A stretch of DNA of 36,038 nucleotides from positions 1-36,038 of the forward strand of contig NZ_MWPQ01000033.1 in NCBI RefSeq assembly GCF_002028545.1, read 5' to 3'. The notes under the pieces are model-generated. The model searched no databases and was not told the origin of the DNA. It was given only the letters and a program-made list of their open reading frames with translations. The stretch is from Nitrobacter vulgaris (GTDB lineage Bacteria; Pseudomonadota; Alphaproteobacteria; Rhizobiales; Xanthobacteraceae). The stretch's first letter is position 1. Each line of letters begins with the position of its first letter. Made by a program: the position numbers and the translations under genes. Of this stretch, positions 20,291 to 28,271 are shown piece by piece.

Positions 20291-20393
20291 AGCCTTTCCG
20301 CTTCTGATGGGATCAGAAGCGGCGCTTCTATGATTTTGATTTGCCACGTTTTCTTCACGCGAACCGATACCCCCTTCGCTCGAAAACGCTATG
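20291..20393 (+). repeat. Palindromic interspersed element, copy 1
   Basis: A hairpin CCGCTTCTGAT-GGG-ATCAGAAGCGG is followed by a conserved box with CGTTTTCTTCACGCGAACC (20347-20365) and an end CGCTCGAAAACGCTATGG. It fills the convergent gap between the exported-protein gene and yidD. I recall this as a frequent Bradyrhizobiaceae intergenic repeat. Related copies lie at 21937, 26475 (inverted) and 26981. Confidence 0.85.
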
Positions 20394-20402
20394 GAAATCC
20401 TC

Positions 20403-25192: not shown

Positions 25193-25217
25193 ACCGACAC
25201 CGTTTCGCGGTGTCGGT
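25193..25217 (+). promoter_or_regulatory. Perfect 10-bp hairpin in the DUF2336 leader
   Basis: ACCGACACCG (25193-25202) pairs fully with CGGTGTCGGT (25208-25217) around TTTCG. No T-run follows, and the start codon is 19 bases downstream, so a role in RNA stability or translation is more likely than termination. Confidence 0.6.
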
Positions 25218-25235
25218 GCGTAAGCCGGAAACACC

Positions 25236-26933
25236 ATGATCGTTCGGCAATTCCTAAGCTGGGTACGGACCGCCCCCGCAGGCGAGCGGGCCGAAGCGAC
25301 GCGAGCGCTAGCCCGCGCGTGGCTCATATCCGATCTGTCCGATGACGACCGCGCCGCTGCCGAGGGCGGGCTGCTGTTGCAGCTCGATGACTCGTCTCCG
25401 CTGGTTCGCCGGGCGATGGCGGACGTTTTCGCGCGTAGCGCGAGCGCGCCGCCGGCCATTGTCCGGGCACTGTCGGTCGATCAGCCGTCGGTCGCTATTC
25501 CGATTCTCGAACATTCGCCACTCTTGATCGATGCGGACCTCGTCGACATCGTCGCGACCGGTAGCTGTGAAGTGCAGTGCGCCGTCGCGCGCCGCGTTCA
25601 CGTGCCGGTGTCGGTCTGCGCAGCCCTTGCCGAGGTTGGCTCGGCGGCGGCGGCACTTGAACTGATCGAAAATCCGGGCGCGAATATCGCGCCGATGTCA
25701 TGGGACCGCATCGTCGAGCGGCATGGTCATCTCGCGGCGATCCGGGAATCGATGCTGGCGCTCGAGGATCTGCCAGTGGTCACACGGCTCGCGCTGGCCA
25801 CAAAGCTTTCGAACTCGCTGGCGCGGTTCGTTGTCTCACGGAGCTGGCTCAATGCCGATCGCGCCGGCCGTGCGGTTAGCGATGCGCGGGATCGCTCGAT
25901 CGTTGACATCGCTGCACATGCGCGAGACGACGACATGTGCAGTCTGGTCGCGCATCTGCGCGCCACCGGGCAACTCACCCCCGGATTGATTTTGCGCGCG
26001 CTGCTGTCGGGCAATACGGAGCTGTTCGACCATGCGCTGGTGGAATTGTCTGGCCTGCCTTTAAGTCGCGTCACCGCGCTGGTTCATGATCGCGGCGGCG
26101 CGAGCCTTCCCGCGCTGCTGACGCGGGCGGGGTTGCCGGAATCCACGTTCCCTGCGTTTCGCGCCGCGCTGGAAGCGCGCGACGAGATTGGCTTTGTCGG
26201 GACGGTCGGCGGTACGACGCGGCTACGCCGCCGCATGGTCGAGCGTGTGCTGACGATGTGCGAAACGGCGCCTGCTGAGGTTTCGGAGCCTCTGCTGATC
26301 CTGCTGCGGCGGTTCGCGACGGAATCGGCGCGCGAGGAAGCGCGTGTGTTCTGTGACGAACTGGTTACCGAAGCAGCCGCCGAGCCGACGCGCGACGAAA
26401 TTGATGAAATGCCGGTTTGCGAGCCGGAGTTTTACGAACCTGAGTTTCGCGAGGAGTTTCGCGAACCTGCCCCCTCTATAGCGTTTTTGAGCGGTTCGCG
26501 TGAAGAAAACGCATCAAATCAAAATACGAGAGTCCTTCAACGTCTCCGTGAAGCGGTGAAGGATTTTAGGCCGCGATTCCTCGACCGCTGGGCGTTCAAA
26601 ACTCAGTTCGACGAACGCGAGTTTGATGAAGTTGAGCCCGACGACGCGAGGTCTTGCGAAGCTTTGCTTTATGAAGCGGAGCCTTATGAAGCGGAGCCTT
26701 ATGAAGCGGAGCCTTACGAAATTGAGTCGTACGGAATTGAGTCTTACGAATCCGAACTTTGCGAGGCTGGGTCTTACGCTGTTGCGTCTTATGAACCGGA
26801 ACGCCTCGAACCGAGGTTTGACGAGCCGGCGTCATACGAGTCCGCGTCCCGTGAGCTGAGCTTTGGCGAGCCCAAAGATTCACCGCGAGCATATCGCGAA
26901 CCGCTGCTCAGCGATCTACTTGCGGCGGCGTAG
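25236..26933 (+). CDS. DUF2336 protein with C-terminal pentapeptide array
   Basis: A 565-residue cytoplasmic protein. Residues 1 to about 370 are Ala/Leu-rich alpha-helical repeats resembling HEAT-type pairs and match my recall of DUF2336, a family of unknown role in alphaproteobacteria. The C-terminal tail is unusual: a short Glu/Pro/Phe array (about 391-413, EPEFYEPEFREEFREP), then about 45 residues partly encoded by an interspersed repeat element, then some 17 degenerate pentapeptides of the form E-x-E-P/S-Y (about 464-548), and a basic/hydrophobic end REPLLSDLLAAA. The tail is highly acidic and likely disordered. The gene has a leader hairpin and a CtrA-like box, and is convergent with the HPt gene. 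Confidence 0.8.
   Translation: MIVRQFLSWVRTAPAGERAEATRALARAWLISDLSDDDRAAAEGGLLLQLDDSSPLVRRAMADVFARSASAPPAIVRALSVDQPSVAIPILEHSPLLIDADLVDIVATGSCEVQCAVARRVHVPVSVCAALAEVGSAAAALELIENPGANIAPMSWDRIVERHGHLAAIRESMLALEDLPVVTRLALATKLSNSLARFVVSRSWLNADRAGRAVSDARDRSIVDIAAHARDDDMCSLVAHLRATGQLTPGLILRALLSGNTELFDHALVELSGLPLSRVTALVHDRGGASLPALLTRAGLPESTFPAFRAALEARDEIGFVGTVGGTTRLRRRMVERVLTMCETAPAEVSEPLLILLRRFATESAREEARVFCDELVTEAAAEPTRDEIDEMPVCEPEFYEPEFREEFREPAPSIAFLSGSREENASNQNTRVLQRLREAVKDFRPRFLDRWAFKTQFDEREFDEVEPDDARSCEALLYEAEPYEAEPYEAEPYEIESYGIESYESELCEAGSYAVASYEPERLEPRFDEPASYESASRELSFGEPKDSPRAYREPLLSDLLAAA
26475..26565 (-). repeat. Palindromic interspersed element, copy 3, inside the DUF2336 gene
   Basis: Read on the minus strand, CGTTTTCTTCACGCGAACC (26492-26510) is identical over 19 bases to copy 1, and the flanks TATTTTGATTTG and GCTCAAAAACGCTATAG also align, with an 11-base deletion. 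A hairpin (about 26531-26542 with 26554-26565) precedes it. The element lies in frame within the coding sequence and breaks a Glu-rich repeat array. Confidence 0.8.
26628..26882 (+). repeat. 15-bp degenerate tandem array in the DUF2336 gene
   Basis: About 17 units of 15 bases. Units starting at 26673, 26688 and 26703 are almost identical (GAAGCGGAGCCTTAT); the others have drifted but keep GAN at the start and usually TAY at the end. The phase keeps several reading frames open, which creates long shadow frames here on both strands. Confidence 0.85.
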
Positions 26934-26980
26934 TTCGTTCGAGCGAAGACTTAAAATTCATCGCTCACGGAAACGGCAAA

Positions 26981-27053
26981 GGATTTCTTTTGGTTTGACG
27001 CGTTCTCTTTACGCGAAGCGGATTCCACTTCGTTCAAAAAAAACGCTCGATAG
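26981..27053 (+). repeat. Palindromic interspersed element, copy 4
   Basis: TTTGACGCGTTCTCTTTACG, then CGAAGCGGATTCCACTTCG and AAAAACGCTCGATAG correspond to the conserved box and 3' end of copy 1; the core matches at 16 of 19 bases. The 5' hairpin is degraded. It lies between the convergent DUF2336 and HPt genes. Confidence 0.75.
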
Positions 27054-27136
27054 GGCTGATCTTCCAGCGGAAATCTTAGTGATAAAAGAAGCCGCGTGAG
27101 AACAGATCCTCAGCCGCTTGCAGGAACGGCCGAGCG

Positions 27137-27715
27137 CTATTCTGTCGGCGCAATGCTCGGCGCGAGAATGGCTTCAAGATGTTCGGGACGGTCCTGGTTG
27201 ACCGTTGCGAGATATTCATCGGCGACAAGACGCAGTTTCCGGTTGATCTCCTTTGCGATGGCCTCGGTGCCGGGGCTGGCGTGCTCGCGCACGATCGCCT
27301 GGATCGCGTTGATGTGATAGGCGATCAGCTCCGTAGGTACCCGGTCGAGAGCCGGCGAATGTTCGATGATGCGGCAGAGGCTTTCGGCACCGGCGGCGGC
27401 GGCGGGATACTCGAAGGTTGCGGCGTCGCCTTTGATGTCGTGCGCGGCGCGAAACAGTTCGTCACGGGTGGCCGGCGTGAATCCGTTCTTGAGAATGGCC
27501 GCGTGGGCGGCGACAAGGCGGTCACACTCGATCGCCATCCACTTGGAGAATTCGTCCGAAAGCCCCGCCAGTGCCTTTTCGGCAAGCGCGATCGGGTCGT
27601 CTAAATTTTTCTCGTCGATCAGCCGAACGACGTTGCGCAGCCGATTGGGCGGGGTGATGACGTGATGGTCGGCGAATGCCTGGATCGTCAGTTCGGCGGG
27701 ATCTTTCTTCTGCAT
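27137..27715 (-). CDS. HPt-domain phosphotransfer protein
   Basis: The 192-residue protein holds a histidine phosphotransfer helix bundle: FRAAHDIKGDAATFEYP (about 88-104) contains the phospho-acceptor His92 within the AHxxKGxA motif. The N-terminal 45 residues (MQKKDPAELTIQAFADHHVI) and the C-terminal helix are extra to the basic domain. The ATG at 27715 has AAAGGC ahead and starts ten bases after the stop of the response regulator, so the two form a transcription unit and probably a phosphorelay pair. A frame extending to 27808 overlaps the regulator and is not used. No histidine kinase is present in the window. Confidence 0.88.
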   Translation of the reverse strand: MQKKDPAELTIQAFADHHVITPPNRLRNVVRLIDEKNLDDPIALAEKALAGLSDEFSKWMAIECDRLVAAHAAILKNGFTPATRDELFRAAHDIKGDAATFEYPAAAAGAESLCRIIEHSPALDRVPTELIAYHINAIQAIVREHASPGTEAIAKEINRKLRLVADEYLATVNQDRPEHLEAILAPSIAPTE

Positions 27716-27725
27716 CGCCGTGCCT

Positions 27726-28271
27726 TTAGCCCGGGGCTCGCGCCTTATCCAGCAGCGATGGCTGCGGGATGACGTCGGGCTCCTTGGTGCCGCGGCGCTC
27801 GGGGCCAATATAGCCGTTGCTGGTATTGCGCCGGCGGTCCGGACCGAAATAGTTTTTGGTCTTGATGAAAGGGCGGGGCGAGACCACGACGTTCAGGATT
27901 CGTTGATAGAGCCCCTTGGCTGAAATCGGTTTCGCCAGAAATTCGGTGACACCAGCATCGCGCGCGACTGTGACGCGCCGCTTCTCCGAGTGTCCGGTCA
28001 GCATGATGATCGGGGCGAACGGGTTTCCCTTCGAGTCCGGCTGGCGGATCATTTGCGTAAGCTCGATACCATCGAAGATCGGCATCGCCCAGTCGACGAT
28101 GACGATGTCCGGAACATAATGAGTAAACATTTCGAGGGCGGTGGCTCCGTCCTCGGCCTCGTAGACTTCGCGCGCGCCAAACGAATGCAGCAACGTGCGC
28201 AGAATGCGGCGCATGTGTGCGTTGTCATCGCAGACGAGAAACCGCAGCTTGTTGAAGTCAATGCCGTACAT
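27726..28271 (-). CDS. CheY-like single-domain response regulator
   Basis: A 181-residue receiver protein without DNA-binding output. FLVCDDNAHMRR (11-22) holds the acidic pair Asp15-Asp16, IVIVDWAMP the phosphorylated Asp60, LTGHS the conserved Thr, and FLAKPIS the Lys. After the receiver (about residue 128) comes a basic tail with two copies of an FGPDRRR / IGPERRG motif, often seen in such alphaproteobacterial regulators. It is the first gene of the pair with the HPt gene. Upstream (28272-28320) two TTAAC half-sites 16 bases apart are visible but do not make a standard CtrA box. A 140-base inverted-repeat element separates it from the NAD kinase gene. Confidence 0.92.
   Translation of the reverse strand: MYGIDFNKLRFLVCDDNAHMRRILRTLLHSFGAREVYEAEDGATALEMFTHYVPDIVIVDWAMPIFDGIELTQMIRQPDSKGNPFAPIIMLTGHSEKRRVTVARDAGVTEFLAKPISAKGLYQRILNVVVSPRPFIKTKNYFGPDRRRNTSNGYIGPERRGTKEPDVIPQPSLLDKARAPG

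Follow-up and report, generated by a model that had tools for sequence, protein, structure and literature searches.

In-frame palindromic repeats within proteins are best known from Rickettsia, whose genome is that of a host-bound, decaying lineage. The Rickettsia palindromic elements (RPEs) described by Ogata et al. (PMC10969869, PMC2229807, PMC3767692) are palindromes of about 100–150 bp that occur in many copies, have one usable frame and lie in frame within genes for unrelated proteins, where the parts that they encode are located in exposed areas (PMC3767692). RPE-like protein evolution has been deemed conceivable in other prokaryotes (PMC10969869), and in-frame repeats as a kind are already known, since they have been described outside Rickettsia (PMC2229807, PMC3733652). 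ERIC, YPAL and NEMIS, from Enterobacteria, Yersinia and Neisseria, are small mobile repeats whose open frames are fused in frame to genes (PMC2229807), and the GTAG and CGTC REP repeats, which are short and palindromic, are reported inside ORFs in several bacteria (PMC3733652). The CIR repeats of the alphaproteobacteria Caulobacter and Brucella are about 110 bp long, comprise two arms and a linker, and are enriched in GANTC, which is named as the CcrM methylation site; they are reported never to be intragenic and to have stops in all six frames (PMC2229807). Bradyrhizobium, belonging to the same family as Nitrobacter in older taxonomy, harbors Br-REP1 and Br-REP2, the latter being part of a larger element said, with data not shown, to occur also in Nitrobacter (PMC5082802).

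An earlier note on the window (i.e., the whole 36,038-nucleotide stretch of Nitrobacter vulgaris DNA that was analysed) had likened a repeat within a DUF2336 gene to RPEs. The likeness holds for the way of working: the repeat is ~105 bp long, palindromic and present in many copies, has one usable frame, and occurs in frame within exposed or loose parts of unrelated proteins. It does not extend to membership, because an RPE is a single hairpin from end to end that carries 12-bp terminal repeats, whereas the Nitrobacter repeat forms two separate stem-loops joined by a linker; it also belongs to another bacterial order and is rare in genes (2/111 copies in the window's genome), the two being set apart by description, not by sequence. 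The repeat thus works in the manner of an RPE but, departing from RPEs in one defining feature, is no established member of that group. By description, its two arms bring it nearer to the Caulobacter CIR, although it departs from the CIR description in having an open frame and lying in genes. The stem of 8–9 bp and loop of 4–5 bp given for CGTC REPs (PMC3733652) do not fit the Nitrobacter consensus structure, and the architecture of ERIC, YPAL and NEMIS differs from it. Br-REP1 and Br-REP2 were rejected as the same repeat, their printed consensuses sharing just 5–7 bp words with it, but the larger element containing Br-REP2 could be the Nitrobacter repeat (PMC5082802). No description of this repeat, or of in-gene copies in Nitrobacter, turned up in the literature searched, which is weak evidence given that most subscription journals lie outside its coverage; the papers listed in a search for DUF2336 do not use that word. 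As far as this literature shows, the novelty lies in the genus concerned, in how many genes are affected and in the exactness of the empty sites.

The repeat family in Nitrobacter

A BLAST search with positions 26455–26585 of the window returned 43 matches, the query itself included, in its own genome (3.9 Mb, 95 contigs), and the best non-self match had 83% over 82 bp (E 6.6e-18). The consensus of ~105 bp built from 14 copies (12 from the window's genome and 2 from relatives) runs from CTATAGCG to CTCTAG, and column conservation in the family alignment falls to background immediately beyond the repeat ends. The consensus is predicted to fold, at an energy of -30.25 kcal/mol, into two stem-loops and an A-rich linker: stem I, the outer one, closes a loop containing an inner stem, and stem II extends over ~16 bp or more. 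Both-sided change occurs in 2/32 pairs, and stem-loop II is represented by at least two sequence types among the copies.

A covariance model of the repeat has 136 matches at E <= 0.01 in the window's genome, a few of which overlap mutually on opposite strands. Three of them lie in the window (Table 1). The repeat that the earlier note had placed inside the DUF2336 gene is real; its span, put at 26475–26565, required a small adjustment to the borders of the family alignment. An identical run between this copy and an intergenic one (model matches starting at 26471 and 20311) was likewise found, but it measures 20 bases, not the 19 claimed. At E <= 0.001, the model has at least 130 matches in the window's genome (G000), at least 150 in each of G004 and G005, and at least 148, 147, 142 and 125 in G006, G002, G003 and G001, respectively; numbers are low in G008 (13) and G007 (43). 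The repeat was detected in 45 of 61 genomes of the family (E <= 1e-6) and, in a class-wide sample, in 5/115, the window's own genome being among the five.

Like CIRs, the copies are enriched in GANTC. The 111 copies in the window's genome (matches at E <= 6.5e-7) contain 107 such sites vs. 47.2 expected from base shuffles, and 75 of them have at least one; at the loop of stem I, the one counted, the motif lies in just 13/94. An Rfam search of positions 25200–27200 gave a single match (E 0.76), far under the gathering score.

Table 1. Features of the DUF2336 gene and copies of the repeat in the window.
Feature	Position	Strand	Basis
DUF2336 protein gene, 565 aa, insertion host	25236..26933	+	ORF; Pfam DUF2336 E 1.4e-73, residues 86-345
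Palindromic repeat copy, in frame, 94 bp	26476..26569	+	Model match 26471-26571, 79.9 bits; family-alignment borders
Repeat-derived codons, 30 residues IAFLSGSREENASNQNTRVLQRLREAVKDF	26478..26567	+	Translation; single open frame of the consensus
Stem-loop I	26481..26512	+	RNA fold
Stem-loop II	26529..26567	+	RNA fold
12-bp in-frame loss point, window species	26491..26492	.	12 bp retained by the consensus and by the three other carrier copies
Intergenic repeat copy, directly behind DUF2336 gene	26949..27056	-	Model match, 48.1 bits
Further repeat copy	20311..20399	-	Model match, 66.6 bits; 20-base identical run with DUF2336 copy

Filled and empty sites in the DUF2336 gene

The DUF2336 reading frame is open across the whole repeat copy, which contributes about 30 residues to a Glu-rich tail, as had been proposed; the tail is rich in both Glu and Tyr on either side of the insert. 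Parts of this acidic tail (26416–26464 and 26669–26750) consist of 12-/15-bp tandem repeats with a unit like TTATGAAGCGGAGCC, and its length differs among Nitrobacter genomes. In a relative from the same family, G013 (L063), the DUF2336 ortholog stops without any acidic tail. As to the surroundings of the gene, its neighbours on the opposite strand (27137–28271) are a response regulator and an Hpt-domain protein, which might point to a role in signalling, and in G005 a repeat copy also lies behind the DUF2336 gene.

Searching the named genomes with the DUF2336 protein yielded 23 loci, of which four are near-full-length (residues 1–556), all of them in Nitrobacter. The insert is present in 4/9 Nitrobacter genomes: the window's own, G004, and two whose DUF2336 tails are identical to those of named strains, G005 (Nitrobacter sp. 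Nb-311A) and G002 (N. winogradskyi NBRC 14297). Each of the four inserts matches the repeat in its DNA (54.7 to 80.3 bits); the pattern named beforehand as counter-evidence, i.e., conserved amino acids with no match to the repeat DNA, was not seen. The segments at the junctions of host and insert in the carriers lie around EPAPSIAFLSGSR and VKDFRPRF. In two of the nine genomes (G006 and G001, whose tails are identical to those of MAGs 62-23 and 62-13) the site is empty and both flanks are joined by three residues (EP-MSD-RPRF), in keeping with the expectation that homologs without the element join the flanks directly; in the remaining three (G003, G008, G007) the fast-changing tail is unalignable at the insertion point. 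A full-length filled site exceeds the empty one by a net 102 bp, or 34 codons. On a tree built on DUF2336 itself and one other protein, the four carriers group as a single clade (support 100), to which the empty pair is sister (support 82), and a single gain on the stem of the carrier clade would be the simplest history.

The consensus has a single open frame among its six (IAFSSEVESGSREENASNQKARVFHRFREAVKDS), and this is the frame that DUF2336 uses. Among the 94 full-length copies in the window's genome that lie outside genes (i.e., excluding the two in genes), the frame is intact in 12, distributed by rising divergence as 3/18, 3/21, 4/40 and 2/15. The four DUF2336 copies, which are 12, 20, 26 and 30% off the consensus, have kept it in every case, but setting in-gene against other copies is no independent test because the former were found partly through their open frame. 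Because simulated random substitution alone still leaves the frame open in 41–68% (35 down to 12 changes), an open frame carries modest weight on its own; support for a kept frame is increased by the absence of any frame-breaking indel from the four inserts. The codon-position pattern of substitutions was discarded as a coding signal, not being clearly different from that in copies outside genes.

Copies read as protein in other genes

To judge from the alignments, the repeat has entered at least four genes besides DUF2336 in frame, each of them with empty orthologs. The most exact case is a PepSY_TM protein (Pfam E 1.5e-69), in which G002 has 104 bp between flanks that in G004 enclose only GG; G005 is also empty, and in the other six genomes the search brought up nothing beyond hits to the repeat itself and matches whose identity does not exceed 33%. 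The difference at this site between G002 and G004, which are close relatives, suggests that the repeat moved recently. A TadE-like protein (Pfam E 3.1e-7) has the repeat codons right after the segment VKPM in G000, G005, G004 and G002, with an additional in-frame loss in G002, and the sequence continues directly without them in G003, G001, G007 and G008 (G006 is unalignable there). An unnamed protein without a Pfam match has the repeat in frame in G006 and G001; it is absent by alignment from G007, G003, G002, G004, G000 and G008, and the search shows a gap in G005. A PMT_2 membrane protein (Pfam E 9e-18) contains one half-element in G004, adding 22 codons, and is empty by alignment in G000, G003, G001, G006, G005 and G007, with the same gap seen in the search for G008. 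A candidate LptE-like gene (Pfam E 1.9e-6) has the repeat near its N-terminus in G006 and G001.

The inserts lie in a low-complexity tail or linker (DUF2336, the unnamed protein), in an N-terminal segment (TadE-like, LptE-like) or, judged from sequence, in a short segment amid hydrophobic stretches (PepSY_TM), places that agree with the exposed areas reported for RPE-encoded parts (PMC3767692). Two individual loci have features of their own. In the PMT_2 gene of G002 (L297:1-1741, contig C7), two half-elements stand in tandem and in frame, adding 43 codons. The TadE-like gene of the window's genome (L159:2367-3125, G000:C6) has the repeat right after its likely start, and, as the start codon is not certain, some of this copy may go untranslated.

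Movement of the repeat is supported by these empty sites, and to this extent the view of it as a mobile-type element stands; a mobilising enzyme, by comparison, was not found with the Y1 transposase profile (PF01797) in the nine Nitrobacter genomes. A RAYT-type mobiliser was rejected on this ground, eight of the nine having no match and G005 two partial ones. At the PepSY_TM site, comparison of the 104 bp with GG in the empty ortholog indicates that a TA duplication would require one more substitution.

Within the window's genome, the DUF2336 and TadE-like copies are the two that are read as protein. A coding-score scan, which may miss short or odd genes, flagged 16 of the 111 copies; apart from DUF2336, the frames of five of these were read individually and the remaining ten were checked for a frame running through the repeat, which none of them has (0/10), since on the relevant strand all frames hit a stop before the end of the element. 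Of the 95 unflagged copies, those inspected singly are the 12 with an intact frame, whose frames have no gene-like context. Two copies that the coding score had placed in genes, L272 and L240, were ruled out by stops within the element; at L240 (G000:C4:107928-108039) the preceding gene seems to take its stop codon from the repeat, and several other copies likewise contain the first stop that the upstream frame meets. From the matches listed, 29 stretches (20 + 9) with an open frame through the repeat were examined: seven are protein-read copies in five genes (L147; L149; L159; L296 and L297; L301 and L302), and the other 22 were set aside by eye, the repeat preceding the likely gene start or the frame being without gene-like content (L303 is ambiguous).

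Origin and meaning of the inserted codons

The best explanation, to which we assign a probability of nearly nine in ten, is a tolerated in-frame insertion of a mobile-type palindromic repeat in DUF2336 that has since evolved as coding sequence. A short, non-autonomous repeat that abounds in Nitrobacter and occurs across much of the family inserted once into the loose acidic tail in the ancestor of the four carrier species, as the filled and empty orthologs and the tree show, and the net gain came in the stop-free orientation and phase of the consensus. Because 102 bp is a multiple of three and this orientation and phase lack a stop codon, the gene stayed open; that the insertion was tolerated can probably be attributed to the looseness of the tail and to the conserved C-terminal end still being in frame. 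Coding-type evolution followed, with the frame kept, lengths changed in frame and the hairpins decayed in the most diverged orthologs; the dN/dS values given below add thin evidence of selection. No fewer than four further genes received the repeat likewise. That a repeat yields new predicted protein sequence, as originally proposed, is supported by the filled and empty sites in DUF2336 and by four more genes, and the explanation requires no use of the resulting peptide.

It could instead be supposed that the peptide has been domesticated as a useful part of DUF2336, e.g., as a stretch of the tail with a role in binding or regulation. The insert is kept in four species, and its dN/dS is below 1 in all six pairs compared (0.30, 0.78, 0.45, 0.22, 0.70 and 0.50), but the constraint resembles that of the surrounding loose tail (0.21–0.46 in the same pairs, with 0.19–0.26 for the domain). 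Synonymous change exceeds nonsynonymous change at p 0.043 (pooled over two independent pairs with rounded counts, one of these pairs having a dN/dS of 0.78), which makes a thin case that selection may act on the inserted codons. Although a weak helix is predicted at residues 426–443, it belongs to a poor AlphaFold model (mean pLDDT 51.5 over six sequences; residues 383–556 below 50); moreover, four of the residues have been lost in the window species, and the presence of the same peptide in unrelated proteins disfavours one specific role. Domestication of the peptide is on balance unlikely. Still less probable, and in our view very unlikely, is that the repeat acts in the gene as an mRNA hairpin or a protein-binding site, with the peptide as a by-product. 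A near-consensus copy has a fold z-score of -8.2, and both the window copy (-3.1) and the G005 (Nb-311A) ortholog (-4.2), in which stem-loop II is still strong and stem-loop I refolded, also fold better than shuffles; however, the two most diverged orthologs, N. winogradskyi L045 (-1.7) and G004 (-1.25), are near shuffles, and the frame is still open in both.

One might also regard the segment as an old part of the protein that sister species have lost, its likeness to the repeat being accidental, and the tails of three genomes are indeed too different for direct polarisation. Against this stand the E-value of 6.6e-18 between the window copy and other copies in the genome, the absence of the segment from every non-carrier Nitrobacter genome and from the shorter G013 protein, and the PepSY_TM gene, in which the same repeat entered at an exact site; an old origin of the segment is scarcely credible. 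Returning to tolerated insertion, a bolder extension would be that the repeat is harmless in genes by its very make-up, since the net length it adds is a whole number of codons and one of its frames stays open, and that it constitutes a recurrent, still active route to peptides of ~34 residues, some of them useful to their hosts. We consider this extension unlikely.

Repeat DNA now appears, from its sequence context, to be read as up to ~34 extra amino acids in several genes of Nitrobacter, a nitrite oxidiser. Here a free-living lithotroph has both young (one species) and old (four species) insertions, with exact empty sites in close relatives. As a series, these insertions are a clean setting in which to ask if the peptides are simply tolerated or turn useful, and the sites are suited to studying how two-armed repeats move.
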